This document shows positions 586 to 62,617 of a DNA stretch of 64,000 nucleotides, piece after piece; within the stretch, counting starts at the first letter, position 1; every line of letters begins with the position of its first letter. Where the stretch lies: IMG/VR virus record IMGVR_UViG_3300032245_001520, positions 1 through 64,000 of that record; one strand, written 5' to 3'. This DNA is from a virus. The position numbers and the translations under genes are program-made. The notes below the pieces were generated by a model that did no database searches, had not been told where the DNA came from, and saw only the letters and a list, made by a program, of their open reading frames with translations.

Positions 586-587
586 GG

Positions 588-3647: not shown

Positions 3648-3657
3648 GGGTAAAACC
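3648..3657 (+). promoter_or_regulatory. GGGTAAAACC element before the plus-strand gene
   Basis: Exact 10-base element, 22 bases before ATG 3680. It is the only copy on the plus strand and the only one serving a plus-strand gene, which shows that its orientation follows transcription. Confidence 0.7.
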
Positions 3658-3679
3658 AGTCAGAAGACAACCAACAATA

Positions 3680-4429
3680 ATGTTAGGTAAAACTACGTTC
3701 AATCTCAACAAAGGTCAGTACTCCGAAAAGTTGGGACGCATCATCGCCAACCACCGAACCAATTCTCGCCTCATCGGTGAACCCGCCGATTTCATTCTGC
3801 GGTCGTGCCGATTGACAGAGCAGTGGGGCAAACTCGGTGCCGACCCCGATACTGTCGTTTACCTCAGAAATGTTGATATCGCCGGAGGTCGTAAAGTCAA
3901 GATGCTTTCCCTCGAGCGTTCGGGAACGAAACAGCCAATCGGCAAGTCAAAACTTGTTGACGCGTTATACCCCGTCAAGAAAATTGCGACGACGGCAACG
4001 GCAGAGGAGAAACATTACAATGGTGTCAAAGCAGCAATGCGTCGTGCTGTGACATCGCAGTTGACCGGATTTCGCGATCTGCAGGCATTACCTGTTGTCT
4101 GCTACCTGACAGGAAAACACATCCGTCGTGGCATGCGCACGGATGTCGACCATGTTGGTACCCCCTTTTCGGAGCTTTGCGACCAATTTCTCTTGCTCAG
4201 GGACCTCAAGTACACTGACATCGCACTCGTAGGTCCCCCGACCGGCAAGCATTTCAAGGACGTTGAACTTTGGGTCGCTTGGCAAGACTACCACCGAGAG
4301 CACGCTCGCTATGCTCTTGTCTGTGCCTCTGCCAATCGCAGCAAGGGGAATGAAGGGTACACGACGCCGCCTGAACTCTACGGATCGTTCTCTGCGGAAG
4401 ACCCCGAGACCATGTCGTTGGACTTTTAA
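3680..4429 (+). CDS. DUF3223/HNH-like phage protein
   Basis: A 249-residue protein, the only convincing rightward gene in the window. It contains CYLTGK (141-146) followed by TDVDHVGTPFSELCDQFL (154-171). This order resembles the CPLTGK...HVDHV...TFKEL block that I associate with DUF3223 (DCL-like) phage proteins, where a degenerate HNH-type Cys/His pair is proposed. Here one Cys and DxDH remain. The ATG at 3680 is chosen because a GGGTAAAACC element and repeat copy A precede it; upstream in-frame ATGs lie inside that repeat. It converges on the fibre gene at 4446. Likely nucleic-acid-related, exact role unknown. Confidence 0.85.
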   Translation: MLGKTTFNLNKGQYSEKLGRIIANHRTNSRLIGEPADFILRSCRLTEQWGKLGADPDTVVYLRNVDIAGGRKVKMLSLERSGTKQPIGKSKLVDALYPVKKIATTATAEEKHYNGVKAAMRRAVTSQLTGFRDLQALPVVCYLTGKHIRRGMRTDVDHVGTPFSELCDQFLLLRDLKYTDIALVGPPTGKHFKDVELWVAWQDYHREHARYALVCASANRSKGNEGYTTPPELYGSFSAEDPETMSLDF

Positions 4430-4445
4430 TCTCCGCTCCCGAAAA

Positions 4446-4874
4446 TCAGAGCAGCGAGACAGTCCGCCAACCGGTCGGTGTGTACACTTCGGGTGCGTTG
4501 AACGTCGTATTCCATCGGATCATGCCGATGACTCCGACAGGTCGCTCTGAGGTGAGACCGGCAGGGAGTTGAGCAGCGCCGACGTCCGACGTCTTGACGA
4601 CGACTCTCGCCGTGTTGACCGACAGAGTTCCGGTCGTTGTGATCGGAGCGTTCGCGGGCAGAGACGTCTGGAGACCATCACCGGCAGCGACAGATGTCAC
4701 CGTACCGAGACCGCCTGTGGCGATGGATCCGAACGACGTCCAGACGCCACGGGCACCGTCGTAGACGTAGGTGAAGCTGTTGCTCGTATTTGCCAGCGGT
4801 GTGGATGCTGGCGAGAACGTGTTCGAGGGAGTTTGCGCCGCTGCTTGGGTGGGGGTGGGGAAGGTGATTGCCAT
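4446..4874 (-). CDS. Small tail-fibre-like protein
   Basis: A 142-residue protein. It starts with the short FP-P adaptor pattern (MAITFPTPTQ), followed by a Tyr/Trp strand (FTYVYDGARGVW), as in the genes at 17048 and 62111. A central fibre repeat (GTVTSVAAGDGL; ITTTGTLSVN) leads to a C-terminal segment (TSERPVGVIGMIRWNTTFNAPEVYT) like one inside the fibre at 15233. Last gene of its transcription unit, 11 bases after the 986-residue fibre. Probably a fibre tip, accessory spike or relic of a larger fibre. Confidence 0.8.
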   Translation of the reverse strand: MAITFPTPTQAAAQTPSNTFSPASTPLANTSNSFTYVYDGARGVWTSFGSIATGGLGTVTSVAAGDGLQTSLPANAPITTTGTLSVNTARVVVKTSDVGAAQLPAGLTSERPVGVIGMIRWNTTFNAPEVYTPTGWRTVSLL

Positions 4875-4885: not shown

Positions 4886-7846
4886 TTAGGGGAGGGCGGG
4901 GAGGGCTGTGATAGCAAGATTATTAGCCAATCGGGCAGAATCAACGCGGACGCCGTGAGTTGATGCCCCGTTCCATGCCATTAGAGTAGGGAAAGTCGCT
5001 TGCCAAGGGTTGGTGGCGTTGGTGTCATTGACTGCAGACCCGTCCGGTGCTGTCCCTGCGGAAGCGTCGAAGATGACGTGGCCATTTCCATACTGCTTCC
5101 ACCCCAACAAACCAACAACGTTGGCGCCAACCAACCCATTCGTAACCCAGTTAGCGGCAGTTGAGGTTAGTGCGGCAGCAGTCCCCGTGACGTTAATCCC
5201 CCAGGTGCCAGATGCCCGAGCGCCAGTCGTTCCAGGGTACAGTGCCTCTTGCTCCTCCTGAGAGATGCGCAGGCGATACCAGGCAGACCAGACGCCGTTG
5301 TTGCAGTCTCGCTGCCAAGTTTGGGTGTCGGCGGCAGTATCGGAGGTGAACGAACAAACTGTCTGGGTGGGCCAAGGGGTATTCTGAGAGACCACAGTGC
5401 CGCAGTACCAGCCTGTGGGGGTAGGGGCATTCTCTGCGTCAAGAGCCGCGTACCACCCGTTTTCAACGGCGTCATTCCAGTCCGTGATCAGCTGAGCTAA
5501 AGCACCTAGCCTCGTCGGCAGCGTGTAGGTTGGGGGGATGGCGGTGGATGACAACAGGCCGTTGGCGTCGGCGACGACCATGCGAGTGCCTGTACCGGCA
5601 AGGTTGGAGATAATTACTACACCTCCGGCGCTAATATTTATTCTTTCCTGAAGGGTCTGACCAGCAGTGCCCACAGGTCTAGTAAAAAACCCTAATCCAC
5701 CTTGTATTTCTGTTGTGGCCGTATTAGCCAAGAGACCTTGGACTTTCGCCATTGGGGCAGCGGCGGGAAGCACGGTAAGACCGAAGTTGACGGCACCTCC
5801 ATCGCCCGCTGCGTAGCCACCGTTGCTAACCGTGAAATCTCCGCCTACGACTTGAAGTCGCGATTGCGGATCGTTTGTACCAATACCGACGTCAGTTGTC
5901 GCCGTGGTGGTCGGATACAGATTGGTTCCCACTTGTGTCCAAACCTGACTCAATCCATCCAACTTAGTCTTATCTGCCGACGACATTGAACCGGCAGTGG
6001 TCGTTGTCGCAGCGTTGATACTGATTGCGGGGGTGGCGCCACCAGAGGAGACGATAGGCAGAGTGCCAGTGACGTCGGTTACGGTTCCACCGCCAGGGAC
6101 TGCTTGTGTGCTCAGGACGCCAGTTGCGTCCGCAACGACCATCCGGGTGCCTGCTCCCGCCAAGTTACCAACAGTGACGGGGCCAGTTTCGGCCACACTG
6201 ATCCGCGCGACACCCGCCGTGACAAGGTTTACCGTTTTACCTTGCAAGGCCAAAACGTCGTAGGCAGTGTTGGCAGGGTCCACTGCGCTGATAGTGAACC
6301 CGCCAGCGCGATTGTCAAACAGCCCTCTGAAGGTGGTCGCCAGGATGTCCAGCTTAGCTGCTGCTGCGGTTAGACCACCAATCGCAACTTCACTTGTGGA
6401 GACCGTGGGGTATAGGCTGTTACCAGCCTGCGTCCAAACCTGACTCAATCCGTCCAGTTTGACCTTGTCCGCCGACGACATCGAACCGGCAGTGGTGGTA
6501 GTGGCGGCGTTGATACTAATGTCCGGAGCAGCGCCACCGGAGGAAACAATAGGTAGAGTGCCGGTGACGCCAGTTACTGTGCCTGCGGGGATGGCAGCAG
6601 AGGAAAGCAGACCGTTAGCATCAGCAACAACCATCCGGGTGCCGGTGCCAGACAGATTGGAAATAGTTATCAATCCGCCAGAACTGATACTCAGTCTCTC
6701 GGCCAAAGATTGGCCAGCGGCACCAAGGGGTCTTGTTAAAAAACTTACGCCGCCTTGCAACTCAGTTCCAGGCGCATTAGCCAGAGCACCTTGGATTTTC
6801 GCCATGGGGGAGTAGGTTGAAGCGGAGGCGATTCCAAAGTTGATAACCCCTCCCTCTCCGGGAGTGAACCCGCCCGTGCTAACAGTAATTTCTCCCCCGG
6901 AAACATGAAGACGCGTTTGCGGCGTAGTTAATCCAATGCCCACTTCAGTCGTTGCAGTGGCGGTCGGATACAAGTCGGTGCCGGCCTGGGTCCAGTCTCC
7001 GCCGCCAGCGGGGATGGATTGGGTGCTGAGGACGCCGCTGGCGTCCGCGGTGACCATCCGGGTGCCTGTGCCACTCAGACTGCGAACGGTCACGAGGCCA
7101 GCTGTGGACACACCTATCTGTGCAACCCCGTTTGTTACGAGGTTGACTTCACTGCCTTGCAGTGTTAGAATACTTTGGGCACTGTTTCCTGCGTTGACCG
7201 AGGTAACTGTAAACCCCCCAGCCCTGTCATCAAACAACCCCCTATAGACCCCTGCCAGGATGTCTAGCTTGGCCGCCGCTGCGGTAAGCCCGCCAAGTGC
7301 AACGTTGCTTGTGGTGATTGTGGGGTACAGATTGTTACCCGCCTGCGTCCAAGGTTCAGATGGCAACGCCTGGGCGCTGAGGACGCCCGTTGCACTGGCC
7401 GTGACCATTCGGGTACCGGCCCCTGCAAGACTTCCAAGGGTGACTGCGTTTGCAGGTGTTACGGTTATAGGAGTGCTAGCGTTGGCGACGAATCCGTCCG
7501 TTGTGTACTGAAGAATGAGGTTATCGCCATCGAGGGCCCACCGATATCCTTTAGTGGTCTCCGTTTGCAACAGGGCAAGGTTCGCAAAAGGACTAAGAAG
7601 AACTGCACCGCCGTTAACCTGAAGCAAAAATCCTGCCTTAACCGTCGTCGTCCCAATGCCCACCGCATTGCCAATAACACTCGGACTCAAAATGTTGCCA
7701 CTTACAGTCCAAGGTTGGGTCGAGCTGATAACCCCGGTAGGAGAGATGGCGATGCCAGCCCCTGCCACAACACCTTGCGCTCTCCCTGGGAGGACGACGC
7801 CTTTGGTGCTGTCCCCGGCGATTAATTGGGCTTGCGAGAGAGGCAT
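4886..7846 (-). CDS. Long tail fibre with pyocin-knob-like and receptor-binding tip
   Basis: A 986-residue trimeric-fibre candidate. N-terminal adaptor MPLSQAQLIAGDSTKGVVL belongs to the RAQ/GDST class shared with genes at 7968 and 16418. The shaft is built from alternating, partly duplicated modules (GTGTRMVVADANGLLS, LTAAAAKLDILA, SMSSADKVKLDGLS). Near residues 770-860 lies a knob-like block (NGWYAALDAENAPTPTGWY... NGVWSAWYRL). The end (GWKQYGNGHVIFDASAG ... WNGASTHGVRVDSARLA) resembles receptor-binding tips of cyanophage fibres as I remember them. The last residues are ITALPALP, a tail shared with two other fibres. It is preceded both by a host-type promoter and by a GGGTAAAACC element. 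Confidence 0.9.
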   Translation of the reverse strand: MPLSQAQLIAGDSTKGVVLPGRAQGVVAGAGIAISPTGVISSTQPWTVSGNILSPSVIGNAVGIGTTTVKAGFLLQVNGGAVLLSPFANLALLQTETTKGYRWALDGDNLILQYTTDGFVANASTPITVTPANAVTLGSLAGAGTRMVTASATGVLSAQALPSEPWTQAGNNLYPTITTSNVALGGLTAAAAKLDILAGVYRGLFDDRAGGFTVTSVNAGNSAQSILTLQGSEVNLVTNGVAQIGVSTAGLVTVRSLSGTGTRMVTADASGVLSTQSIPAGGGDWTQAGTDLYPTATATTEVGIGLTTPQTRLHVSGGEITVSTGGFTPGEGGVINFGIASASTYSPMAKIQGALANAPGTELQGGVSFLTRPLGAAGQSLAERLSISSGGLITISNLSGTGTRMVVADANGLLSSAAIPAGTVTGVTGTLPIVSSGGAAPDISINAATTTTAGSMSSADKVKLDGLSQVWTQAGNSLYPTVSTSEVAIGGLTAAAAKLDILATTFRGLFDNRAGGFTISAVDPANTAYDVLALQGKTVNLVTAGVARISVAETGPVTVGNLAGAGTRMVVADATGVLSTQAVPGGGTVTDVTGTLPIVSSGGATPAISINAATTTTAGSMSSADKTKLDGLSQVWTQVGTNLYPTTTATTDVGIGTNDPQSRLQVVGGDFTVSNGGYAAGDGGAVNFGLTVLPAAAPMAKVQGLLANTATTEIQGGLGFFTRPVGTAGQTLQERINISAGGVVIISNLAGTGTRMVVADANGLLSSTAIPPTYTLPTRLGALAQLITDWNDAVENGWYAALDAENAPTPTGWYCGTVVSQNTPWPTQTVCSFTSDTAADTQTWQRDCNNGVWSAWYRLRISQEEQEALYPGTTGARASGTWGINVTGTAAALTSTAANWVTNGLVGANVVGLLGWKQYGNGHVIFDASAGTAPDGSAVNDTNATNPWQATFPTLMAWNGASTHGVRVDSARLANNLAITALPALP

Positions 7847-7874: not shown

Positions 7875-7884
7875 GGTTTTACCC
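7875..7884 (-). promoter_or_regulatory. GGGTAAAACC element for the 986-residue fibre
   Basis: Exact copy inside a longer inverted repeat (GGGGTAAAACCCC), 28 bases before ATG 7846, in a 121-base intergenic gap that also holds a host-type promoter. Confidence 0.7.
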
Positions 7885-7967: not shown

Positions 7968-10223
7968 CTAGACAGGTGCGATAGTAGTTGCCACAAACGA
8001 AGCGCCAGTCGGAGGTGCGCCATTGAACGTGATTGCACTACCAGCCACTTCGTACGCATTACCAGCACCTGGCGTCTGAATCACCCCGCCGACGAACACT
8101 TGAATGTTGGTCGCAGGCGTCGGAGGGAATGCAACACCACTAACCTTGAGGTCAAAAGACGTTTCGGTGCCGTCAAAGTCGCCGGAGATGTCGTCAAAAT
8201 AGACGTATTTGGCACCGCCAGGCGCCGCAGCCCACGCAAGGCCCGTCGCGGTCCCGCTGTCAGCCGTGAGGACCAGGCCATTGGCACCCACAGGGAGAAT
8301 CGCCGGAGCGTTGTTGCCAGTCGCGGAGATCAGGTTGCCCTTGGCAGTGACAATCGACTGCAGAATCGGTGCGGTGCCCGCAGTGATCGCAGTGACGCGT
8401 CCTTTACTATCAACAGTGACCGAGGTCGGGTATGCCGAGGTGCTGGCGGGATCGGGAGCCAGATCGACGAGGCTGACGGTGACATTGCCCGTTCCGCCCG
8501 AGACAGCGATTTGGTTCGGCGTACCCGCGATCGAGTCAACGACAGTCGCCCATTTGAGGCCAGTGGCCGTGGTGCTGTCAGCGACCAGCGCGTAGCCATT
8601 GGTGCCAGCGGCGAGTTCGCCCACGACAGCGTTCGCTGTGCCCACGAGCACGTGGCCTTTGCCAGTGGCGGTTGCCTTGGGCACAGCAGCATCGGCAACG
8701 GTCTTGACCGCAGTCAGCTGTGCCTCGGTGGAAACGTCGGTGGTCGATGCACCGCCAAGGTTACCGCTGAGGCGAACCACACCGTAGATGGCCGTCGTTG
8801 CTTGCTGCACCTCAGGACCGATGGGCAGATAGATCCACTGAGTTCCGTCGGACAGGAACCAGTCACCAGGCTTGACGTTGGTGTAGGCAGTGCCGCCTGG
8901 GGGTGTGTAGCTGGCAGCGCCAGTCGTGACGATAACGAAGATGCTCTTGTTGGCATTGCTTGCCGCAGGAAGAGCAGCACCGTTGGCAAGGCCACCAGCG
9001 ATACCTTCAGCGGTGACGTCGGCGGTCAGACCCGTCGCAGCATTCAGTGTGCCGCCCAGAGTCAGACCGGAGCCGAGTCCGGAGATTTGCTGCTGCAGGA
9101 CGAAGATCTGGTTGGCAGTGGCGCCCAGAGTGGTGCTTTGGCTGTCCGAACCGTCGTAGAGTTGGACGACACCAGCTTGCGTCGTCGAGGCACTCTTGAC
9201 ACTGATGGTGCCACCGGCGGTAACGTCGATGTTAGTGCCGACCTGAACAACGCCAAGGTCCGTAGCGGATGCAGGGTTGACGCTGATGGAAACGGTGCCG
9301 GTGGGTGCGCTGACCTCGACGGGGCCGACAGCAGTGATGCTGTTGACGAGAGTGGCCCACTTGACGCCATAGTTGGTGACGGTGGAGTCAGCGACGAGTG
9401 CTTGGCCGTTGGTGCCAACATTCAGAATGACTTGGTCGCTGGTCTGACCAGGAGAGCCAACGACGAGCTGGCCGACAGCGGTCCACGCGATGCCGTCGGG
9501 GTCGGACCAGAACAGTGGGCCGCCAGCGCCGCCGGATCGCAGTTGCTGACCGTTGGTGCCAGCGGTGGCGGGCCAGGTGTAGTCGTTGTACGGTTTGGCG
9601 CCAGTGACGCCGTCCCAGAGTTGAACCTTGGTCTCCTCCAGCACGCGACCGGCATTGGCCGTCAGGGCCTGAGTCAGCGAGGTGCTGGCAAGAGTATCGT
9701 TGAGTTGGACGGCACCGGCTGCGGTCGTCGTAGCACCCGTGATGCCGATGATGGGGTTGGTTGCTGTGCCGGTGTTGCTGATGGGAGCAGTCACCGTGAC
9801 GGAAACCACGCCACCAGGAGTGATGTTCGTCCACTTGATGCCACCGGGGGAGGCGCTGTCGGCTTCGAGGAACTGGCCGTCGACACCGGGGTTGACGTAG
9901 ACGTAAGTACCAGCGCCGGTACCAGCAATCAGCTGACCGAGCGAGGTGAAGTTGAGACTGAAGGGATCGGACCACGCCAGCGTGTTGGCAGGACCGAGCG
10001 TCAGCTGCTGGTTCTGTGTGCCTGCAACTGCGGGCCAGACGTAAGCGTTGAACGCACCGGCGGAGTTGAGACGGACGAAGTCGGTAAGACTAGTCTGGTT
10101 GATCGAGATCTCACCAGTCGCCGAGATGGTGATGCCTGTGCCTGCGGTGACGCCAACGCCACCGGGAACGAGTGTCCCTAGGGTGGAGTTGCCCTGCAGG
10201 AGTTGTGCGCGGTTAAGAGCCAT
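7968..10223 (-). CDS. Tail fibre, 751 residues
   Basis: N-terminal adaptor MALNRAQLLQGNSTLGTLV (RAQ class). The shaft carries repeated phage-fibre motifs (AGAVQLNDTLAS, QLTAVKTVADAAVPKA, TSVTVDSKGRVTAI) and repeats around LVADSTTATGLKWA. The C-terminal module has DDISGDFDGTETSFDL, VFVGGVIQTPG, and YEVAGSAITFNGAPPTGASF. This end recurs in genes at 10306, 17048, 18522 and 25873 and looks like a mobile beta-sandwich cap. A GGGTAAAACC element lies 68 bases upstream of the ATG, a longer leader than usual. The opposite strand is also open for 746 codons, which is a composition artefact of the repetitive gene. Confidence 0.9.
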   Translation of the reverse strand: MALNRAQLLQGNSTLGTLVPGGVGVTAGTGITISATGEISINQTSLTDFVRLNSAGAFNAYVWPAVAGTQNQQLTLGPANTLAWSDPFSLNFTSLGQLIAGTGAGTYVYVNPGVDGQFLEADSASPGGIKWTNITPGGVVSVTVTAPISNTGTATNPIIGITGATTTAAGAVQLNDTLASTSLTQALTANAGRVLEETKVQLWDGVTGAKPYNDYTWPATAGTNGQQLRSGGAGGPLFWSDPDGIAWTAVGQLVVGSPGQTSDQVILNVGTNGQALVADSTVTNYGVKWATLVNSITAVGPVEVSAPTGTVSISVNPASATDLGVVQVGTNIDVTAGGTISVKSASTTQAGVVQLYDGSDSQSTTLGATANQIFVLQQQISGLGSGLTLGGTLNAATGLTADVTAEGIAGGLANGAALPAASNANKSIFVIVTTGAASYTPPGGTAYTNVKPGDWFLSDGTQWIYLPIGPEVQQATTAIYGVVRLSGNLGGASTTDVSTEAQLTAVKTVADAAVPKATATGKGHVLVGTANAVVGELAAGTNGYALVADSTTATGLKWATVVDSIAGTPNQIAVSGGTGNVTVSLVDLAPDPASTSAYPTSVTVDSKGRVTAITAGTAPILQSIVTAKGNLISATGNNAPAILPVGANGLVLTADSGTATGLAWAAAPGGAKYVYFDDISGDFDGTETSFDLKVSGVAFPPTPATNIQVFVGGVIQTPGAGNAYEVAGSAITFNGAPPTGASFVATTIAPV

Positions 10224-10291: not shown

Positions 10292-10301
10292 GGTTTTACC
10301 C
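10292..10301 (-). promoter_or_regulatory. GGGTAAAACC element for the 751-residue fibre
   Basis: Exact copy (GAGGGTAAAACCCTTCAAC context), four bases after the TAG of the upstream gene and 68 bases before ATG 10223. Confidence 0.7.
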
Positions 10302-10305: not shown

Positions 10306-10788
10306 CTACGGCAAGACACTCACAATGCTAAATGCCGCAAATGTCAGTCCCGTCGGTGGCGGATTGGAGAATGCCACTCTGCACCGACCAGCATTCACAT
10401 TGAATGTGTACGCATCCGGCAGTTGGAACACACCGCCGAGAAACACTTGAATATTCGTCGCTTCCACCACTTTGTCGTTGCCTTGATAGGTAAGGAAGAA
10501 CGTCGTCCTGACCCCGTCAAACTGTCCCGAGATGTCGTCCCAGTTGAGAAATGTCCAGTCGCCACCGACGCCACCCGAAGACGAGATGACAACGTCTCCG
10601 ATACCGGCAGGCGGGTCCAGAGTGATGTTGGTTCCGGCAATGATTCGGTTTACTGCACCGCCACCACTCCGAACAATCCGCCATGTCGCTGTCACTGCCT
10701 CCCAGCGATACTGCGTCTGCCCCGGAAGTGGGGCGGTAGGGTACAGCTGACCGTTGGTTGGTGAAGGTGGGAAGGAGAGTAAGGACAT
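10306..10788 (-). CDS. Short fibre/adaptor protein, 160 residues
   Basis: The N-terminal 75 residues (FPPSPTNGQLYPTAPLPGQ, YRWEAVTATWRIVRSGGG, RIIAGTNITLDPPAGIGDV) are closely similar to the start of the 846-residue fibre at 12169. They are joined directly to the C-terminal cap module DDISGQFDGVRTTFFL / VFLGGVFQLPDAY. The gene is therefore an adaptor plus a cap with no shaft, which shows how modules are shuffled. It has its own GGGTAAAACC element 35 bases upstream. Confidence 0.85.
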   Translation of the reverse strand: MSLLSFPPSPTNGQLYPTAPLPGQTQYRWEAVTATWRIVRSGGGAVNRIIAGTNITLDPPAGIGDVVISSSGGVGGDWTFLNWDDISGQFDGVRTTFFLTYQGNDKVVEATNIQVFLGGVFQLPDAYTFNVNAGRCRVAFSNPPPTGLTFAAFSIVSVLP

Positions 10789-10823: not shown

Positions 10824-10833
10824 GGTTTTACCC
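10824..10833 (-). promoter_or_regulatory. GGGTAAAACC element for the 160-residue gene
   Basis: Exact copy (CAGGGTAAAACCCGTTAAC), 35 bases before ATG 10788 and 10 bases after the end of the 436-residue gene. Confidence 0.7.
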
Positions 10834-12168: not shown

Positions 12169-14709
12169 TCAGTTTGTGTTAACAGTCCACCCTCTTGCCT
12201 CCAGGGCTGCCTTAGCGGCTAATCCTGCTGGGCCGGGGGGCGAGGAGGTGCCCCCGTCGATTGACAGTATACCGTTAGGTTGACCCGCAGTGTTAATGGA
12301 GACAAGAATGTTATCCACGCTGGTTTGATTGAGAGCGCAGAACTGCCAAGCCTCTTCAAAAGCAGTTGCCATGCAAGTGTCAAATATGTTGGCAGGGAAA
12401 GAGACCAGATTTGTACAACCGTACCAAGCGCCGTTGAAGTAAAGTCCAGAACTAAAGTCGAGACTAGGGAAAGAAGTTAGTCCGATGCACCCCGACCAGG
12501 CATAAAAGAACCCCTCCCCTGAACTTGTGTTGAGAATAGGGAAAGATCCAAGGGAGTTGCAGTTACCCCATGCACTGCCGAAATTGGTTCCTTTACTTGT
12601 GTCAAGAAGGGGGAAAGATGTCAAGCTAGTGCAGTTACCCCAGGCGCCCACAAAATTAACCCCTGAACTTACATCAAGCAAGGGGAACGAGGTTAGTGAA
12701 GTGCAACCATACCACGTTTGAAAAAATTCAAGTCCTGAACTCATATTAAGTTGCGGGAAAGAGGTTAAGGAGTCACATTTTTGCCAAGTGAAGGAGAAGT
12801 TTGTGCCTTTGCTCACATCGAGAAGAGGGAAAAAGGCCAAGTCACTGTAATCCCCGGCACGTTCTAACAAGTCCATGTCCCAGGCACTCTCGAAGTTTGT
12901 CCCGTTGCTGGTGTCGATCAGAGGGAAAGAAGTTAAACTATAACAGTTCCTCCAAGCAAAACTGAAATCAGTTCCTTTGCTGGTGTCAATCAAAGGGAAA
13001 GAGGTTAGACCCCAGCAATAACTCCATGCCCTAGTGAAAATTATTCCAGAACTTGTGTCGAGTTGGGGGAAGAAGGTTAACTCAGTGCAACCGTCCCAAG
13101 CGTAGGTGAAATCAGTCACGCAATACGGGTTTACGTCCGTCCTGCACCCATAAGGGGGCAAGTCACACTGAAGTATAACGTACAAAGTGTCAAAACTCTT
13201 TGAGGAAAGAGCATCATAAGCGGTTTGAGACAACGAAACCATGTTGTAGATGCTATCGGACCCTGGCACAAGGTCCACATCACTCACCACGGTCTTGTCA
13301 ATTCTTTGTTTGTCCGCAGCAGACATTGACCCTGGGTCTGTCTGTGTTGCTTCCGTTATAGTGATGTTCGGCGAAGACGGGTTTCCCGTGAGAACAATGG
13401 GTTCAGTCGCTGTAACTTCGGAGACAGAAGTGTCCGTAACGTCCAACCACAACCACTCCGCTCCATCAGAGAGAAACCAGTCACCCTTCGAAGTGTCGTA
13501 AGGACCACCCCCACCCGGTGGATCGTAGGTTCCCCCCACAGTGATGATAACGAAATAGTCCTTATTGGCGGGTGCGGCTATTGGAAGGTCCTGATTGACG
13601 ATGAACCCCGCTGTGTCACCGTCCGGAGTTGTCACGGTCACACGAGAAGTGCTTGCGTCAAACAACCCCGCCAGTGTCAAATTGCTTGCATTTGCCAGAG
13701 CGTTAATCTGCTGCTGCAGAAACCATATCATATTAGCGGTGGCTGCCTGTGCAGTATTGCTCTCTCCCGTGTTCGTATCGTTCAGCTGGACAACACCACG
13801 TGCCGATGTCGTCGCCGATCGCACCGTGATGTTCGGTGTCGTGTCACCAAACGTCACCTCAAGTGGCAGATCGGCAGTGACCTCGGTGACTGTGCCAGGG
13901 AGTCCGTCGACCGCATTGATGTACCCAGCGGCGTTGAGATAGAGTGTTCTCTGCGTTGCGTTGGCCAGGCCCGGTAGTTGCACACCGACTGAGTCCCACT
14001 GCATCTTTTTGACAGCGCCCGCTGAGACTGCGATCGATGTTGCGTCTGGGTTGTACAGTCCGTACGTCTGCCCACCGACTGCGAGAGAGACATTGCCGAC
14101 ATCGCCAGTCTGCACCGTGCGGATGCGACCGTCAGCAGCGAGGTTGATGGCAGGGTTGACGTCGGTGCCGCCGACCTGAACGGCGTTCGCCCGATTGGTC
14201 GGCGCCAGGTTGCTGCCAGTCAGCAGCCAGTCGCTGTTGTTGATGACGCTGATGGCGCCGCTAGGGGTGACCGAGATGGTCGTGCCGTCGGGGATGACTC
14301 CGCCGAGAGTGGCCGTGGTTGCTGCTGGGAGCGTGTAGTTGCTCAGACCGTCCAGTTTGGTCTTGTCTGCCGCTGACAGCGAGCCAGGAGACAGGGTGGT
14401 CGCCGGATTGATCGAGACGACCGGAAATGCTGTGGTGCCACCGACGACGATGGGCAACGTGCCGGTCACCTGTGTGACGGTGCCGCCCCCGCCACCGCCC
14501 GTGGCGCTGACGGTGACGACACCGACCCCTTCAGGGGGACTCAGAGAGATATTTGGCCCTGCAATCAGTCGCTCAACACCGCCACCTGCACGAATGATGC
14601 GCCATGTGCTTGTGGCCGCCTCCCACTCGTACTGCGTCTGGTTCGGCAGAGGGACGACAGGGTAGATCTGTCCGTTGAAGGGATAGTCGGGGAAATTGAG
14701 TAGCGACAT
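12169..14709 (-). CDS. Tail fibre with C-terminal leucine-rich-like repeats
   Basis: An 846-residue protein. The N-terminal FP-P/QTQYEWEA adaptor is shared with the gene at 10306. It is followed by fibre-shaft motifs (LSAADKTKLDGLS, GVVQLNDTNTGESNTAQAATANMIW) and a DGAEWLWLD block. From about residue 535 to 790 there are ten or so repeats of 23-24 residues with the pattern LTSFPLLDxSxGxxFxxAWxxC. This is a BspA/DUF285-style surface leucine-rich repeat, here with conserved Trp and Cys. The C-terminal part (SVDNILVSINTAGQPNG ... LEARGWTVNTN) closes the repeat. Such domains usually bind proteins or glycans, so this is a candidate receptor-binding fibre. A GGGTAAAACC element lies 32 bases upstream. 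Confidence 0.9.
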   Translation of the reverse strand: MSLLNFPDYPFNGQIYPVVPLPNQTQYEWEAATSTWRIIRAGGGVERLIAGPNISLSPPEGVGVVTVSATGGGGGGTVTQVTGTLPIVVGGTTAFPVVSINPATTLSPGSLSAADKTKLDGLSNYTLPAATTATLGGVIPDGTTISVTPSGAISVINNSDWLLTGSNLAPTNRANAVQVGGTDVNPAINLAADGRIRTVQTGDVGNVSLAVGGQTYGLYNPDATSIAVSAGAVKKMQWDSVGVQLPGLANATQRTLYLNAAGYINAVDGLPGTVTEVTADLPLEVTFGDTTPNITVRSATTSARGVVQLNDTNTGESNTAQAATANMIWFLQQQINALANASNLTLAGLFDASTSRVTVTTPDGDTAGFIVNQDLPIAAPANKDYFVIITVGGTYDPPGGGGPYDTSKGDWFLSDGAEWLWLDVTDTSVSEVTATEPIVLTGNPSSPNITITEATQTDPGSMSAADKQRIDKTVVSDVDLVPGSDSIYNMVSLSQTAYDALSSKSFDTLYVILQCDLPPYGCRTDVNPYCVTDFTYAWDGCTELTFFPQLDTSSGIIFTRAWSYCWGLTSFPLIDTSKGTDFSFAWRNCYSLTSFPLIDTSNGTNFESAWDMDLLERAGDYSDLAFFPLLDVSKGTNFSFTWQKCDSLTSFPQLNMSSGLEFFQTWYGCTSLTSFPLLDVSSGVNFVGAWGNCTSLTSFPLLDTSKGTNFGSAWGNCNSLGSFPILNTSSGEGFFYAWSGCIGLTSFPSLDFSSGLYFNGAWYGCTNLVSFPANIFDTCMATAFEEAWQFCALNQTSVDNILVSINTAGQPNGILSIDGGTSSPPGPAGLAAKAALEARGWTVNTN

Positions 14710-14741: not shown

Positions 14742-14751
14742 GGTTTTACCC
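14742..14751 (-). promoter_or_regulatory. GGGTAAAACC element for the LRR fibre unit
   Basis: Exact copy with the most typical downstream context (ACTCAACAGA), 32 bases before ATG 14709 and seven bases after the preceding gene. Confidence 0.7.
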
Positions 14752-16417: not shown

Positions 16418-17014
16418 TTAGGGGAGGGCGGGAAGAGGTGTGATTGCGAGTGCGATTGTCCTGTTGGTGTTAGCACCGGAGATCGCGATCGCGGAGCCTG
16501 CGGTAACGGCCAGGACGCCAGTGTTGGAGATGGTCGGGTTCTGTCCCGCAGTAACTCCGATGCCACCACCTGCCGTCACTGTTAGGATGCCGGTGTTGGA
16601 CAGAGTGACGTTGCCGGTGCTTCCGCCGCCGGAGATGCCATTGATGCCGAACACGCCAGAGATGCCGCTGGTGGCGCTGCTGTAACTGGTGCCAACTTGC
16701 ACCCAGACGGGTTGGCCGCCATTGGAGTAACGCAGAAAGAGACTGGCGAGGTTGTTGTCCCAGTAGAGGGACCCGTCGACAGCTTGCAGTCGGCCACCGC
16801 CGGGGGAGGGGGGGAGTCCGAGGCTCGGCAATGCCACCTTGACGAAGGTGCCGTCAACGGTGAGACCAAGACCCAGGGAGCTCACCCAGTCTACTCGTGC
16901 AACACCTGTTGCATCGATAGAGATGCTTTCGCTGCCTTTGACAGCTTGGACCTGGCCAGCCAGGACTGCTCCCTGGGTGGTGTCCCCGGATAAATACTGA
17001 GCCCTAGTTAGCAT
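16418..17014 (-). CDS. Short tail fibre, RAQ-type adaptor
   Basis: A 198-residue protein with the RAQ/GDTTQGAVL adaptor (MLTRAQYLSGDTTQG), a strand-rich middle (GGGRLQAVDGSLYWDNNLASLFLRYSN is split by loops) and short repeated fibre motifs (GNVTLSNTGILTVTAGGGI; NPTISNTGVLAVTAG). It ends in ITPLPALP, the tail also found at 4886; the last 15 coding bases, stop included, are identical between the two genes. First gene of a unit that continues into the genes at 15233 and 14759. Confidence 0.85.
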   Translation of the reverse strand: MLTRAQYLSGDTTQGAVLAGQVQAVKGSESISIDATGVARVDWVSSLGLGLTVDGTFVKVALPSLGLPPSPGGGRLQAVDGSLYWDNNLASLFLRYSNGGQPVWVQVGTSYSSATSGISGVFGINGISGGGSTGNVTLSNTGILTVTAGGGIGVTAGQNPTISNTGVLAVTAGSAIAISGANTNRTIALAITPLPALP

Positions 17015-17037: not shown

Positions 17038-17047
17038 GGTTTTACCC
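17038..17047 (-). promoter_or_regulatory. GGGTAAAACC element for the 198-residue fibre unit
   Basis: Exact copy, abutting the stop codon (17048-17050) of the preceding gene and 23 bases before ATG 17014. Confidence 0.72.
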
Positions 17048-17550: not shown

Positions 17551-17560
17551 GGTTTTACCC
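17551..17560 (-). promoter_or_regulatory. GGGTAAAACC element overlapping a stop codon
   Basis: Exact copy in an extended inverted repeat (AAAGGGTAAAACCCTTT), 23 bases before ATG 17527. Its bases GGG TAA are the last Gly codon and stop of the glycosyltransferase gene. Confidence 0.75.
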
Positions 17561-20630: not shown

Positions 20631-20640
20631 GGTTTTACCC
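20631..20640 (-). promoter_or_regulatory. GGGTAAAACC element for the 693-residue fibre
   Basis: Exact copy (GAGGGTAAAACCACTTTAAG), 27 bases before ATG 20603, 25 bases after the preceding gene. Confidence 0.72.
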
Positions 20641-25853: not shown

Positions 25854-25863
25854 GGTTTTACCC
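25854..25863 (-). promoter_or_regulatory. GGGTAAAACC element for the YadA-fibre unit
   Basis: Exact copy, 51 bases before ATG 25802. The leader between them contains a short GGGG-TCTA-CCCC hairpin. Confidence 0.7.
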
Positions 25864-30870: not shown

Positions 30871-30880
30871 GGTTTTACCC
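30871..30880 (-). promoter_or_regulatory. GGGTAAAACC element for the 1650-residue protein
   Basis: Exact copy, one base after the stop codon of the 55-residue gene and 45 bases before ATG 30825. A small AGAGT/ACTCT hairpin lies in the leader. Confidence 0.72.
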
Positions 30881-33194: not shown

Positions 33195-33204
33195 GGTTTT
33201 ACCC
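33195..33204 (-). promoter_or_regulatory. GGGTAAAACC element with adjacent repeat copy C
   Basis: Exact copy, 25 bases before ATG 33169. Repeat copy C begins directly upstream (33206), so the two form one composite regulatory block. Confidence 0.75.
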
Positions 33205-34961: not shown

Positions 34962-34971
34962 GGTTTTACCC
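34962..34971 (-). promoter_or_regulatory. GGGTAAAACC element for the Cys-cluster protein unit
   Basis: Exact copy directly abutting the stop of the acidic-tail gene (34972) and 21 bases before ATG 34940. Confidence 0.73.
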
Positions 34972-35362: not shown

Positions 35363-35372
35363 GTTTTTACCC
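35363..35372 (-). promoter_or_regulatory. GGGTAAAAAC variant element overlapping a stop codon
   Basis: One-base variant, 22 bases before ATG 35340. As at 17551 and 55496, GGG TAA within it is the final Gly codon and stop of the upstream gene, here a homing endonuclease. Confidence 0.65.
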
Positions 35373-39406: not shown

Positions 39407-39416
39407 GGTTTTACCC
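39407..39416 (-). promoter_or_regulatory. GGGTAAAACC element for the phoH unit
   Basis: Exact copy, abutting the stop codon (39417-39419) of the upstream gene and 23 bases before ATG 39383. Confidence 0.75.
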
Positions 39417-41714: not shown

Positions 41715-41724
41715 GGTTTTACCC
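41715..41724 (-). promoter_or_regulatory. GGGTAAAACC element for the terminase unit
   Basis: Exact copy (CAGGGTAAAACCACTCAAC), 22 bases before ATG 41692, with repeat copy B immediately upstream. Confidence 0.78.
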
Positions 41725-41793
41725 TGCCAGGTGTTCGATCGATGTGCCATGTGCGCACATGTGCCATGTGTTCGATCGATCGATGCATCGATG
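41725..41793 (-). repeat. Composite palindromic repeat, copy B
   Basis: On the minus strand: stacked ATCGAT/GATC palindromes, GAACACATGGCACAT, ATGTGCGCACAT, GGCACATCGATCGAACAC, and then the GGGTAAAACC element. Positions 41759-41793 equal copy A (3567-3601) over 35 bases on the opposite strand. It lies between a small fibre-unit gene and the terminase unit. Confidence 0.88.
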
Positions 41794-41806
41794 ACATGCC
41801 AGGCAC

Positions 41807-43581: not shown

Positions 43582-43591
43582 TGTTTTACCC
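43582..43591 (-). promoter_or_regulatory. GGGTAAAACA variant element
   Basis: One-base variant, 32 bases before ATG 43549 and four bases after a strong terminator hairpin. This is good evidence that the element starts a new transcript. Confidence 0.68.
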
Positions 43592-44742: not shown

Positions 44743-44752
44743 GGTTTTACCC
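44743..44752 (-). promoter_or_regulatory. GGGTAAAACC element for the 348-residue fibre
   Basis: Exact copy, one base after the stop codon of the 77-residue gene and 51 bases before ATG 44691. Confidence 0.7.
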
Positions 44753-45001: not shown

Positions 45002-45011
45002 GATTTTACCC
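45002..45011 (-). promoter_or_regulatory. GGGTAAAATC variant element
   Basis: One-base variant, 14 bases before ATG 44987 or 20 before the alternative ATG 44981, and three bases after the preceding stop. Confidence 0.6.
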
Positions 45012-46375: not shown

Positions 46376-46376
46376 G

Positions 46377-48802: not shown

Positions 48803-48804
48803 AG

Positions 48805-49983: not shown

Positions 49984-49988
49984 AGTTA

Positions 49989-51176: not shown

Positions 51177-51179
51177 GAT

Positions 51180-52421
51180 TTACACCGATGCGTGAAGAGA
51201 AACGGCAGCGGCCAACAGCGATGCCTGTGTGGGCATACCTGCGTTATTGCCAACGTAGTAAACGCAAGCGGAGATGGGGTTGGCGTTGCCGAAGTTGTTG
51301 GCAGCGATTGCGTCTCCGGAGTTCCTTCTTCCTAAGAACATTCTGGAGTCAGTGTAGTTCGAGTTGGAGGAAACACCGGACTCCAGGAAGGCTGTCCACG
51401 CACCACCGTTGAAGGAGTAACGAAGGACTGTGCCGTCGTCGTAGACTGCGAAGGTGTTCTTGTTGTTGTCGCCGGTGTTGAAGGCCAGGGCAGCGGTGGT
51501 GCGAATGCTCGTGGCTCCGGAGATGCCCCTGTAATAGGTGATGTTACCGGCCCCCCTGTTAACGTCGATAGCGACGGAGGCATTCCCCCACGCGCCGTCC
51601 GTTTGTGTGAAGGTCATGAAACGACGACCATTCTCAGTGGCGCCGTTCAGACCAAACTGGCAAGTTATCCAGAAGTTCGTTCCAGTGGTTCCCCCACCGA
51701 CAGCGTCTATCCACCCGCGAGAGATGTTGTCAGTGTAGCAGCAAGGGGCGAAGAGGGAACCGACTCTCCACCAGTTGCCGCTGCCTACCACGTTGACAGT
51801 GGCGCCGCCGAATCCAAAGATGGCGCCACTGTTGAGTGCTGAGATAAGAGTCCGCTGCCGAGTCACCTGGTCGATGAGTTGGTAGCAGTGGCAGTAGTCC
51901 TCGACTGCGTTAAGGTTGTAGGTCGTCAGGTTGCAAGCAGCTGCGGATCCACCGCCACCACCGGCAAAGTTGCAACCGGGGTTGGTGGTGGCGTTCGACG
52001 TCATGAACGTGAACGGTAGCTGACCGACGACGGGGTCAGTGTAAAGGTTGTTCATCCCCCAGGCGTGCTTAGGACTCACCTTGGTTCCCGATGCATTGAC
52101 AAGGTTATCGAACGGGAGAGTCTGGTTCAAGTCGGGAAATGTCGACCAAGCTCCGGTACTTACATTGAGCTTAGGCGCAGAGCCGGTCTGCAACCAAAAC
52201 TCTCCGACCGTTGTTCCAGAGGATCCAACCGGATTTCCGTTGGGCGTGTTTGATGATACTTGAGCAGGTCCCAACTTCGAGATGGTGGTCCCGTTACTGT
52301 TCTTCAGGAACAGGCCGGGTGCCACTGCTGCGGTGTTAAGGGCAAGCTCTCCGAAGTCTATTTGAGTCGTGTCGGGACGTTTGTTCGCGACTGCCGACCG
52401 TTTTAACAAAAAATTGGCCAT
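51180..52421 (-). CDS. Lectin-like tail fibre, tandem paralogue 6
   Basis: A 413-residue paralogue and the first gene of the unit. Adaptor FLLKRSAVANKRPDTTQIDF, GLFLKNSNGTTISKLGP, TVGEFWLQTGSAPKLNVS. It is unusually rich in Cys and Gly in the middle (NPGCNFAGGGGGSAAACNL; DYCHCYQLIDQ). Fold markers: LIDQVTRQRTLISA, FWITCQFGLNGATEN, KNTFAVYDDGTVLRYSFNGG, ISACVYYVGNNAGMP. Element 48 bases upstream. Confidence 0.86.
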   Translation of the reverse strand: MANFLLKRSAVANKRPDTTQIDFGELALNTAAVAPGLFLKNSNGTTISKLGPAQVSSNTPNGNPVGSSGTTVGEFWLQTGSAPKLNVSTGAWSTFPDLNQTLPFDNLVNASGTKVSPKHAWGMNNLYTDPVVGQLPFTFMTSNATTNPGCNFAGGGGGSAAACNLTTYNLNAVEDYCHCYQLIDQVTRQRTLISALNSGAIFGFGGATVNVVGSGNWWRVGSLFAPCCYTDNISRGWIDAVGGGTTGTNFWITCQFGLNGATENGRRFMTFTQTDGAWGNASVAIDVNRGAGNITYYRGISGATSIRTTAALAFNTGDNNKNTFAVYDDGTVLRYSFNGGAWTAFLESGVSSNSNYTDSRMFLGRRNSGDAIAANNFGNANPISACVYYVGNNAGMPTQASLLAAAVSLHASV

Positions 52422-52469: not shown

Positions 52470-52479
52470 GGTTTTACCC
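52470..52479 (-). promoter_or_regulatory. GGGTAAAACC element heading the lectin-fibre unit
   Basis: Exact copy, six bases after the stop codon of paralogue 7 and 48 bases before ATG 52421. It would control six paralogues and the 65-residue gene (no other copy until 45011). Confidence 0.73.
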
Positions 52480-53669: not shown

Positions 53670-55400
53670 TCAGAAGCTGCCGCCGTCAACAGTTCCCGTG
53701 TACCTGAGTTGGTTCCCAGCAGGGTTGACTTCGAGCATTTGACCGGCAGTTCCGATGGGGAGAACACCTGGTCCTGGCCCAGTGGTGAGACCCTGGAGGA
53801 TAGTGCCTGGCTGGGCATACTCACTCTGACCCACCTCATTGAGAACGGTGCTCAAGAAGTCGTACGTAATCGCAGTGGTCGGACCAACGGGGTCAAGGAC
53901 GTCGTCCGCGATAAACACCGGACCCCTTTGGGTGGCGCTGGTTGGAATGCCGAGAAGAGTTTGGGGGGAGACGACTAAGGAAGCCTCTGACCCCGCATTG
54001 ACTTGCTCCTGTGTGGCGTATCGGGCGAGTCCGGACAGACTGGTGCTTGCGATTCTGCCGTTTAACGTGGACGGCGTAACAACCTTGAAGTCATTCTCAC
54101 CAATGTTGACCTCCAACTGAGTCGCCAACAGAGCCAGACCCGGACTGAACTCGCTTGCCTCCAGAGAGGACAGACCGAGAGGCGTCACAGCGATAGTATC
54201 GTCCGTGCCCGCCTGAGTCTCCCCAGGTTCTGCGAGGCGCACGATGCCCTTGACAGTGGTGCTGGCATCGGGTACCGAGGATGAACCGATGGGAATGTAC
54301 TCCCAAGCAGTGCCACTGCACACATACCAGTCGCCAGGGTTGACCGTGTCAGGTGTGCCACCGGGGGGAGTGTAGACTCCAGCAGTGTCGACCACCACGA
54401 AGTAGCTGGTAAGACCAGCAGCGGCAGCAGGCAGGTCAGCACCGACAGTGAAACCTTTGGCAGCACCTGCGGTGGTCACCGTGCTCACTTTGCCGGTGTT
54501 ACCGTTCAGTGTCCCTGCGAGTGTGAGTCCGCCACTGATAGACAGGTTGTTGATTTGAGTTTGGAGAGCAGCGCCAGCACTCGCAGTCAGAGCAATGGTG
54601 TCATCATTGAGAGCCAGAGAGTCTGTCAGTGCGACAACACCAGGAGTGCCGATGGCGCCATCTGCGACACTGATGATTGAGTTGCTATCAACGTTAATGT
54701 TCTGGCCGACCTGAAGTATGCCTGCCTGGCCAACAGAACCGGAGTTGACGCTGACGATACCAGCGGTGGCCGTCAGACCCGTGCCAGGTTGCATGACACC
54801 AACCGTGGTCGCAGAAGCGATGGCGACGCCGATGATGGCGTTGGTCGTGCCGATGACGCTGATGGATCCGGATCCCGCGATCGTCTCCACTCCACCCGGA
54901 CTGGGGAGAACCCACCGGACGCCAGTGGCAGAGGCAGGGTCAGCAGTCAGTACTGTTCCTGGCCCACCGATGGCAACGTTGACTGGAACGCCAGCGCCGG
55001 AAGCAGCCAGGATGGCGCCTTTCGCCGGATAGGCACCCGTGAGGACGGGCGGAGTGGCGTAAAGAGTGGGAGGAGCGTTGAGGCGACCGAAGGCATCGAA
55101 GGAGACACGACGAACATAGTCGTAGCTAGCAGCGGCGATACCAACGGTTGCGAGACCGATCGTGCCTGTGTCGATGATGCCAGTCGCGGGGTTGGTGACA
55201 ATACCGACGCCTGCCGTGACCTCGGAGACACCGCCACCACCACCACCACCACCAGTGACGTTCAGGTAGTTACCAGAAACTGCGAGACCTGACCCAACAA
55301 TCAACAGACCTGTGGGCGTGTTGAGACCGAATGTTGGCGGCCAGTAGAATGGCGAGTTGGGGATGGGGATTAGGAAACTTGGGGGATTAGGCAGCGACAT
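53670..55400 (-). CDS. Tail fibre, 576 residues
   Basis: Start at ATG 55398-55400; the frame is open upstream from a GTG at 55481, but that part contains a hairpin and looks like leader. N-terminus: MSLPNPPSFLIPIPNSPFYW, TGLLIVGSGLAVSGNYLNV, then a Gly tract. Shaft repeats: VMQPGTGLTATAGIVSVNSG, AGILQVGQNINVDSNSIISV, GVVALTDSLALNDDTIALTA, TVKGIVRLAEPGETQAG (Phage_fibre_2-like). The end (GTAGQMLEVNPAGNQLRYTG) is a strand pair also used inside the 1946-residue fibre. Element about 95 bases upstream, with a long structured leader. Confidence 0.87.
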   Translation of the reverse strand: MSLPNPPSFLIPIPNSPFYWPPTFGLNTPTGLLIVGSGLAVSGNYLNVTGGGGGGGGVSEVTAGVGIVTNPATGIIDTGTIGLATVGIAAASYDYVRRVSFDAFGRLNAPPTLYATPPVLTGAYPAKGAILAASGAGVPVNVAIGGPGTVLTADPASATGVRWVLPSPGGVETIAGSGSISVIGTTNAIIGVAIASATTVGVMQPGTGLTATAGIVSVNSGSVGQAGILQVGQNINVDSNSIISVADGAIGTPGVVALTDSLALNDDTIALTASAGAALQTQINNLSISGGLTLAGTLNGNTGKVSTVTTAGAAKGFTVGADLPAAAAGLTSYFVVVDTAGVYTPPGGTPDTVNPGDWYVCSGTAWEYIPIGSSSVPDASTTVKGIVRLAEPGETQAGTDDTIAVTPLGLSSLEASEFSPGLALLATQLEVNIGENDFKVVTPSTLNGRIASTSLSGLARYATQEQVNAGSEASLVVSPQTLLGIPTSATQRGPVFIADDVLDPVGPTTAITYDFLSTVLNEVGQSEYAQPGTILQGLTTGPGPGVLPIGTAGQMLEVNPAGNQLRYTGTVDGGSF

Positions 55401-55459
55401 GAGGTCTCCGAAGGCAGGGATATCTGTGGCGCAAAAGCGAGTTGTGAAAAAGTTGAGGA

Positions 55460-55477
55460 CCCCTGTAGAAACAGGGG
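55460..55477 (-). other. Leader hairpin before the 576-residue fibre
   Basis: CCCCTGT-TTCT-ACAGGGG, seven-base stem and four-base loop, in the leader between the GGGTAAAACC element and the ATG. Eight bases downstream is a TTTTT run. It could be a weak attenuator, an RNA stability structure or part of an N-terminal extension if GTG 55481 is used. Confidence 0.5.
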
Positions 55478-55495
55478 CCACGTTTATCGTTGTGT

Positions 55496-55505
55496 GGTTT
55501 TACCC
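55496..55505 (-). promoter_or_regulatory. GGGTAAAACC element overlapping a stop codon
   Basis: Exact copy for the 576-residue fibre unit. GGG TAA within it is the final Gly codon and stop of the second homing endonuclease. Confidence 0.7.
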
Positions 55506-56213
55506 TACCCTGACTCGATTTTCTTTGCCGTGGGGAAGGCCACGTGATTTTTGTTTGAGGGTGAGACTCCCGGCGCTGAGTGCACCCAATTCAGGGTGAA
55601 GAGGGTCTTCCCACTTTTGGGCAGCCACTTGTTTTCCTCTTTCTCGGCGTTCTTCTGTTGGGATGCCGCAGATGCCAACTCCGAGCTCTTTAGATCGGGC
55701 CCCACCTTTCGCCGCTCCCTTTAGACCGCACCTGCGTTGATAATCGGGGTCTTCGGCTATTCTTTTAGCGATAGCAGCGCGACCCCCCCTAGCAAGTCCT
55801 TCCTTGGTTCTTTTTGCCGCGTTCTTTTTGTTTCGTTCGCTCAAATAAACGGGGTCGTCTGAGTACATGCCCTTTTTCTCAGCCATAAGTTTAGCAGTGC
55901 TCCTCCTTCCATTCTCCCTGGCAACCTTTAATGAGACGCCCGTTCCAGAACACCCCTCATTGAGACAACAAGGGTTGTTAAGATCGGGACGAATTAAACG
56001 GTCTTCTACCAAGTTAGCCTGTTTCCATCCTTCATCAGAGTAAGGGAAACACTCTAGCACTTGCTTTTCAGCGTCGTAAAAATCCCAGGCCCACTTGTTT
56101 GTGCTAGGGGATCCCCAGTACTTTTCGTCGAAGACCCTTTCCTTGTGGACACCCCAGTAGAAGTATGAGGTGCCCGGAAAGGTGATTTTGTAAGTGTAGA
56201 TGCGCGGTTTCAC
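55500..56213 (-). CDS. GIY-YIG-like homing endonuclease
   Basis: A 237-residue protein from GTG 56211-56213 (an ATG is not available in the N-terminal region). N-terminus IYTYKITFPGTSYFYWGVHK with EKYWGSPSTNKWAWDF is a diverged GIY-YIG core: YxYK-I-T...YYxGxxK-like. A conserved Glu follows in ANLVEDRLIRPDLNNPCCLN. The rest is Arg/Lys-rich with repeated short helices (AKRTKEGLARGGRAAIAKRI; RRCGLKGAAKGGARSKELGV). AT content is higher than in the neighbouring fibres. Like the first homing endonuclease it ends in Gly-stop inside a GGGTAAAACC element, and it has a GGGTAAAACA variant 20 bases upstream. Confidence 0.85.
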   Translation of the reverse strand: MKPRIYTYKITFPGTSYFYWGVHKERVFDEKYWGSPSTNKWAWDFYDAEKQVLECFPYSDEGWKQANLVEDRLIRPDLNNPCCLNEGCSGTGVSLKVARENGRRSTAKLMAEKKGMYSDDPVYLSERNKKNAAKRTKEGLARGGRAAIAKRIAEDPDYQRRCGLKGAAKGGARSKELGVGICGIPTEERRERGKQVAAQKWEDPLHPELGALSAGSLTLKQKSRGLPHGKENRVRVG

Positions 56214-56233: not shown

Positions 56234-56243
56234 TGTTTTACCC
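56234..56243 (-). promoter_or_regulatory. GGGTAAAACA variant element before homing endonuclease 2
   Basis: One-base variant, 20 bases before GTG 56213 and 16 bases after the 1946-residue gene. Together with the exact copy at 55496 it brackets the homing endonuclease, as if the element had been duplicated around the insertion. Confidence 0.62.
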
Positions 56244-62100: not shown

Positions 62101-62110
62101 GGTGAGAACT

Positions 62111-62584
62111 TCAGGAAAGGGTACCGCAATCGATGAGAGAGATTTCAGAAGCGTCGTTTATTGTTACTCCTGCGCCGGAGCGGACGTAACCGTTGTCTTT
62201 CAGGTACGCCGTAACGGTACCGTTTACCCACCCGACAGTGACGAACGCTGCCGGATTGTTCGGAACTTCTGCTTGAAGGTAAATCGGTCCTTCAAACACC
62301 CCGCCATTTTGGTCGATGCTGTCGGTGGGATAGGGGACAACTGCCACCCACTGTGAACTGTTTAAGTCTTTGTAGTAGATGTTTAGGTTACTCGTGACTG
62401 TAGAGTACCACAGAGAACCATTGATCGGGTTTGCCGGAGGGGACGCCGACACGAACACAGGTGCGGAAGTGGGGGTCGTAACCTGGGTAGCAACCCATGA
62501 TGTTCCATTCCACTTGAAAGTTCTGCCTGTGTTAGAATATACCTGCCCTAGAGCAGGATTTGGAGGAAACGTCAGTGCTGCCAT
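62111..62584 (-). CDS. Short fibre/adaptor protein with FP-P start
   Basis: A 157-residue protein. N-terminus LTFPPNPALGQVYSNTGRTF and KWNGTSW is the FP-P/Trp adaptor also present at 4446 and 17048. The middle has GSLWYSTVTSNLNIYYKDLN and SSQWVAVVPYPTD, a Trp strand set resembling the end of the stand-alone adaptors. It finishes with GYVRSGAGVTINDASEISLI. First gene of the unit that contains the 1946-residue fibre; element 23 bases upstream. Confidence 0.83.
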   Translation of the reverse strand: MAALTFPPNPALGQVYSNTGRTFKWNGTSWVATQVTTPTSAPVFVSASPPANPINGSLWYSTVTSNLNIYYKDLNSSQWVAVVPYPTDSIDQNGGVFEGPIYLQAEVPNNPAAFVTVGWVNGTVTAYLKDNGYVRSGAGVTINDASEISLIDCGTLS

Positions 62585-62607
62585 TCGCCCTGGAGACTTC
62601 TTTGAGA

Positions 62608-62617
62608 GGTTTTACCC
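62608..62617 (-). promoter_or_regulatory. GGGTAAAACC element for the giant-fibre unit
   Basis: Exact copy (AAAGGGTAAAACCTCTCAAAG), 23 bases before ATG 62584 and 27 bases after the connector-like gene. Confidence 0.73.

Follow-up and report, generated by a model that had tools for sequence, protein, structure and literature searches.

What does the short sequence that recurs ahead of the late genes of this virus do, and what reads it? The window, meaning the whole stretch of 64,000 nucleotides that was analysed, comprises bases 1–64000 of an 82,344-bp IMG/VR record and carries the myovirus markers terminase, head protease, baseplate J, tail fibres, and thyX. Its terminase shares 55% identity with that of Synechococcus phage S-CBWM1 (Aokuangvirus), 58–93% with those of 55 metagenomic viral contigs, and ~31% with that of S-TIM5. 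By sequence comparison, the record is that of a cyanomyovirus related to S-CBWM1. It is probably a fragment, because the genome of S-CBWM1 is 139 kb. Scanning the window for Rfam families and tRNAs gave no matches.

A preliminary description of this region had reported 18 exact copies of a ten-base element, GGGTAAAACC, together with four one-base variants. Our recount agrees, with 18 exact copies in the window (17 of them on the minus, coding strand), and adds two further variants inside a gene. The 24 sites with at most one mismatch compare with 3.5 ± 2.0 expected from dinucleotide shuffles, for which the maximum was 8. Four of the six one-base variants are intergenic (35363, 43582, 45002, and 56234), and the other two (26751 and 26787, minus strand), which are 36 nt apart within a gene encoding 1650 amino acids, are probably chance occurrences. 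A scan of both strands of the whole 82,344-bp record found 24 exact copies (1 forward, 23 reverse) and 0 copies of the word read backwards. As had been claimed, no copy lies within positions 1–3488. The consensus in the record is A GGGTAAAACC M n T Y A A, and the extension beyond the ten bases proposed earlier is supported by the flank frequencies over 24 copies: A at position −1 in 16/24, T at 12 in 19/24, A at 14 in 18/24, and A at 15 in 17/24.

The only plus-strand copy (3648..3657, exact) is found where it had been described, 32 nt before the ATG of the lone plus-strand gene (3680..4429, 249 codons). All the others lie on the minus strand. Exact copies at 7875..7884 and 10292..10301 precede a fibre-like gene (4886–7846) by 38 nt and the gene at 7968–10223 by 78 nt. 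Those at 10824..10833, 14742..14751, 17038..17047, and 17551..17560 lie 45, 42, 33, and 33 nt before the genes at 10306–10788, 12169–14709, 16418–17014, and 17048–17527, respectively, and that at 20631..20640 lies 37 nt before a tail-fibre-repeat gene (18522–20603). The genes behind the exact copies at 25854..25863 (61 nt before 25341–25802) and 30871..30880 (55 nt before the 1650-aa gene, 25873–30825) have orthologues that are also led by the element in 6/7 and 9/11 relatives, respectively. Two exact copies overlap predicted reading frames: 33195..33204 is inside the longest-ORF call at 32672–33211 (element-led in 9/11 relatives), and 34962..34971 is close to the 5′-end of the ORF call at 34233–35033 (orthologues element-led in 11/12 relatives). 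The variant GGGTAAAAAC is found at 35363..35372. Further exact copies are located at 39407..39416, 33 nt before the gene at 38568–39383, and at 41715..41724, heading the terminase-side unit (terL, 39657–41414). The variant GGGTAAAACA occurs at 43582..43591, immediately downstream of a terminator-like hairpin, and is followed by an exact copy at 44743..44752 (61 nt before a fibre-like gene, 43645–44691) and by the variant GGGTAAAATC at 45002..45011. The exact copy at 52470..52479 heads, by 58 nt, the ORF array at 45215–52421, while that at 55496..55505 lies 24 nt before the called GTG of a tail-fibre gene (53670–55481). A second GGGTAAAACA at 56234..56243 lies 30 nt before the gene at 55500–56213, and the last exact copy (62608..62617) lies 33 nt before the gene at 62111–62584. 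The array at 45215–52421, behind the copy at 52479, consists of six successive ORFs of 386–419 aa, and DNA repeats spaced ~3.6 kb suggest that it is an expanded paralogue array.

We compared the window's record with 12 related contigs and S-CBWM1 (14 genomes), counting the words upstream of ORFs de novo, without supplying the word reported earlier. The octamer GGGTAAAA heads the upstream 8-mer counts in 10 of the 14 genomes, and a word that overlaps it within the element ranks first in three more (the window's record and contigs G009 and G008); in contig G010, GGGTAAAA ranks fourth. The bases after these eight vary by virus, with T in S-CBWM1 and CC in the window's record, which makes the ten-base form a local one. 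Of the 10-mer in the preliminary description, the part that holds across the group is thus the core GGGTAAAA, as judged from these counts of upstream words, whereas the trailing CC is mostly specific to the window's record.

Both the position and the strand of the core follow the genes. Among 333 copies, 156 lie 26–40 nt before the start of a same-strand ORF, compared with 3/333 for the reverse complement of the core and 1/59, 1/103, and 0/66 for control words. Most distances to the start codon fall within the narrow range of 29–38 nt. Copies are distributed 312:21 along the gene strand, which for these genomes bears out the claim that the element is strand-following, and in a second set of contigs, selected through their sigma gene and sharing some members with the first set, GGGTAAA is distributed 87:4 compared with 19:7 for a control word. 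In all 11 genomes (the window and 10/10 relatives that have an orthologue), the lone plus-strand gene or its orthologue runs against the other genes, with GGGTAAA on its own strand in nine. Counted over the relatives, the element, usually as GGGTAAAG, is on the strand of the inverted gene in 8/10; in S-CBWM1, the variant AGGTAAAAT lies 33 nt before the ATG, and in the tenth relative, G006, the gene sits at the contig end. Genes that are element-led in the window's record tend to be element-led in relatives at ~50% identity (e.g., 10/14 vs. 0/17, p = 2e-5), although this concordance is not significant with S-CBWM1 alone (p = 0.69) or G014 (p = 0.07).

The association with late genes can be assessed in S-CBWM1, where GGGTAAAA is found within 70 nt upstream of 9/23 virion or lysis genes compared with 3/39 other genes (p = 0.004), using our own gene classes, assigned from product names in the record and restricted to genes with a named product. 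The non-virion genes with the element, which count against the late-promoter reading, include phoH, nadM, and a homing endonuclease gene. In the two largest contigs, G010 and G008, the element is concentrated in the terminase-bearing part (p < 1e-6 each, values that are optimistic because the split point was picked after the bins had been seen). In the portions of these contigs that are poor in GGGTAAAA (0–160 kb of G010 and 0–100 kb of G008), other upstream words of TATA type, CGGTATAGT and AACGCTATA, were counted, and words of this type are possibly early or middle promoters. Genes without the element lie closer to the preceding gene (Mann–Whitney p = 0.004), in line with the claim that they start close behind it. 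The proposed division of the late genes into about 21 units is therefore operon-like by spacing, but independent units bounded by terminators are not supported, as terminator-like hairpins are no commoner ahead of the elements (1/35) than at random positions (21/300).

The architecture of the element resembles that of a promoter. Numbering along the element, A at index 7 is present in 155/205 distinct start-proximal copies (76%) compared with 13/70 in-gene copies (19%), and A at index 14 in 128/205 (62%) compared with 22/70 (31%; p = 8e-6); index 13 is a pyrimidine in 63% of the 205. Conservation ends around this start-like A, and the leader beyond it is not conserved. No −35 box was found, with no position upstream of the core in the start-proximal copies exceeding 0.05 bit. 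Taken together on sequence alone, the element looks like a −10 box plus a start site, the latter being predicted from the conserved A. With index 14 as +1, TAAA would occupy −11 to −8; with index 15 as +1, GGG would have the place that it has in SigB promoters, −15 to −13 (PMC11156646). The leaders predicted in this way are mostly 15–25 nt long and are depleted in Shine–Dalgarno matches (mean −1.6 vs. −2.8 kcal/mol for random sequence). A Shine–Dalgarno role for the GGG itself was rejected, given its wrong distance and the paucity of matches in the leaders.

A counterpart can be found in the more distant phage S-TIM5 (Aurunvirus), in which the top upstream word is GTTTAAAG. Among its 29 intergenic copies, 22 lie 19–57 nt before starts, on both strands and following the genes, and the word precedes 17/41 virion genes compared with 1/31 other named genes (p = 1e-4). 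It is like GGGTAAAA in its distance to the start codon, its bias towards virion genes, and its company with an orthologous sigma gene, but differs in having GTT for GGG, in ending with G, and in occurring on both strands. The single sigma annotated in the 150 kb of S-TIM5 that was read is a distant orthologue (E ~1e-7) of the SigF-like sigma described below. On these comparisons, the position of the element is kept in S-TIM5 while its sequence and the sigma have both diverged. Our literature search returned no account of the GTTTAAAG element, which the original S-TIM5 paper may nevertheless mention.

The relatives carry two sigma-70 genes, encoding proteins of ~241 aa and 204 aa. The former, represented by S-CBWM1 HOU61_gp045 and its orthologues, has SigBFG and SigF (PRK07408) as its best NCBIfam matches, over regions 2–3 only. 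Its C-terminus gave no Pfam region-4 match, with a weak one at residues 119–136. The AlphaFold model is moderate (pLDDT 69), and its fold matches are sigma factors generally, with poor superposition. Since the model is moderate and these matches span the sigma fold, the protein may contain a degenerate region 4. This SigF-like sigma is present in S-CBWM1 and most relatives and diverged in S-TIM5; it was not found in Syn9, T4, contig G008, or the window's 82-kb fragment. In the open complex of Staphylococcus aureus SigB, regions 2 and 3 jointly read the −10 sequence GGGWAW, and R110 and R100 make the contacts to its first two G (PMC11156646). Mapped through the printed alignment, the equivalent phage residues are R103 and R93, which are invariant in 18/18 homologues and in S-TIM5. 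The position of SigB R97 (third G) is H in 18/18 phage homologues and N in S-TIM5. In the nine sigma loci examined, the 1 kb ahead of the sigma gene contained no GGGTAAA, as would be anticipated if the factor were synthesised earlier than the late phase. Conservation in the group extends to the 204-aa sigma, which matches ECF-type models through region 4; a peptide-pattern search with it matched only S-CBWM1's own copy.

Among known systems, the T4 late promoter is an 8-bp, −10-only element without a −35 box, located about one helical turn upstream and served by gp55, which is without a sigma-4 domain (PMC2988020). It shares with GGGTAAAA the −10-only octamer, a phage sigma, and TAAA at the same place when index 14 is +1; the T4 octamer is TATAAATA, at about −13 to −6, so that nothing but TAAA and its position is common to both. 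The difference from the T4-type sequence noted in the preliminary description thus stands, yet the distance from the likely start differs between the two by no more than one base. Membership in the gp55 system was rejected: gp55 (phrog_234) was not found in S-CBWM1, S-TIM5, or relatives (the window's own genome being incomplete), it was matched in the positive controls Syn9 and T4, and the SigF-like sigma has no detectable profile similarity to it. The two factors have opposite distributions, gp55 in T4 and Syn9 and the SigF-like sigma in S-CBWM1, S-TIM5, and most relatives. The gp45 clamp profile (PF02916) matched T4 only, with no match in Syn9 either, so that its lack of matches elsewhere carries no information. 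Closer in sequence are the promoters of Gram-positive SigB, GTTTWW–GGGWAW (PMC11156646), and of Synechocystis SigF, with GGTAA at −12 and TAGGC at −32 (PMC2758279). Their −10 is nearly identical to that of the phage element (GGG-T-A), the candidate phage sigma is closest to the models of these factors, and the two G-contacting arginines are kept; they differ in that the −35 GTTTWW or −32 TAGGC is missing from the phage element, whose candidate sigma matches regions 2–3 only and which precedes phage late genes. The Microcystis cyanomyovirus Ma-LMM01 is likewise a freshwater cyanomyovirus, but its late promoters resemble host SigA sites, it has no gp55 homologue, and its genes are considered host-SigA-dependent (PMC5780444). 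A full-text literature search for the octamer gave no sign of the element among the matches listed, and the literature on promoters or sigmas of S-CBWM1 and S-TIM5 yielded no such element, although the original phage papers may mention it.

We consider it probable that the element is the −10 box of a late promoter read by the phage SigF/SigB-type sigma, with the start site, the late timing, and the reader inferred from these comparisons. GGGTAAAA would span roughly −14 to −7, or be shifted upstream by one base, and transcription would start 7–8 nt downstream of the core, at the conserved A that follows a pyrimidine, giving a short mRNA leader (mostly 15–25 nt) without a Shine–Dalgarno match. 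Host core RNA polymerase would be directed by the phage group-3 sigma (HOU61_gp045 and orthologues), a relative of cyanobacterial SigF and Gram-positive SigB whose regions 2–3 would read GGG-T-A and which has no recognisable region 4. Of the two functions suggested earlier, a late promoter or a leader signal, the former is well supported because of the fixed spacing to the A, the conservation that ends there, the strand-following, the bias towards virion genes, and the matching sigma in relatives. The assignment of the reader is weakened by the lack of the sigma gene in the window's fragment and in G008, and by the conservation of the 204-aa sigma. A late promoter read instead by host SigF, another host sigma, or the 204-aa phage sigma seems unlikely to us. 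Cyanobacterial SigF does read GGTAA in its −12 region, but in the core promoter mapped for it this is accompanied by TAGGC at −32 (PMC2758279), and there is no upstream conservation here; the 204-aa sigma, matching ECF-type models through region 4, should require a −35 box. The pairing in S-TIM5 of its one annotated sigma, the SigF-like orthologue, with a diverged element in the same place also argues against another reader.

An RNA-level signal in the leaders of longer transcripts, such as a processing site, a translation enhancer, or a ribosome-recruiting leader, would also fit the tight start-codon spacing, the leaders without Shine–Dalgarno matches, and the lack of enriched terminators. 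We regard it as improbable, since conservation stops at the start-like A and does not continue into the leader, a leader signal would need no −10-to-start spacing, the core equals a SigB-type −10, and S-TIM5 shares the position and not the sequence, together with a diverged sigma. Stoperators of phage L5 are short, intergenic, and oriented with transcription, characters that the element shares, but an asymmetric operator of this kind, or a polarised replication or packaging word, is very improbable. A genome-polar word would neither turn with the inverted gene, as this element does, nor keep a fixed distance to starts, and the S-TIM5 counterpart is found on both strands, following the genes. 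A compact element of ~20 bp without a −35 box could also serve a T7-type single-subunit RNA polymerase. This we find scarcely credible, and for S-CBWM1 it is contradicted by the search for PF00940, which found 0/23 records, including complete S-CBWM1, and matched the T7 control.

The late-promoter reading could have the following history, for and against which the case appears evenly balanced: a host-type SigF/SigB sigma was captured by the ancestor of the S-CBWM1 and S-TIM5 groups, lost the domain that reads the −35 box, and became dedicated to late genes, while the octamers (GGGTAAAA in one branch and GTTTAAAG in the other) drifted along with it, in convergence on the gp55 system. If the late-promoter reading is right, two or more distinct sigma families have given rise to −10-only transcription of late genes, and the phages would offer natural sigma–promoter pairs (GGG vs. 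GTT) for the reading of the upstream half of the −10 by regions 2/3. With GGGTAAAA as a guide, late genes and changes of strand can be located from sequence in a cyanophage group that is widespread and almost uncultured, and S-CBWM1 with Synechococcus CBW1002 provides a cultured phage–host pair for testing.

Two of the copies in the window, at 3648 and 41724, also share 41-nt and 32-nt repeats upstream (ATCGATCGAACACATGGCACAT..ATGTGCGCACAT), located at 3561–3667 (+) and 41705–41799 (−) and thus mutually inverted. A short piece of the same repeats is found upstream of the copy at 33204 (−). The repeats shared by the first two copies may be a duplicated stretch of promoter or a site for an upstream activator.
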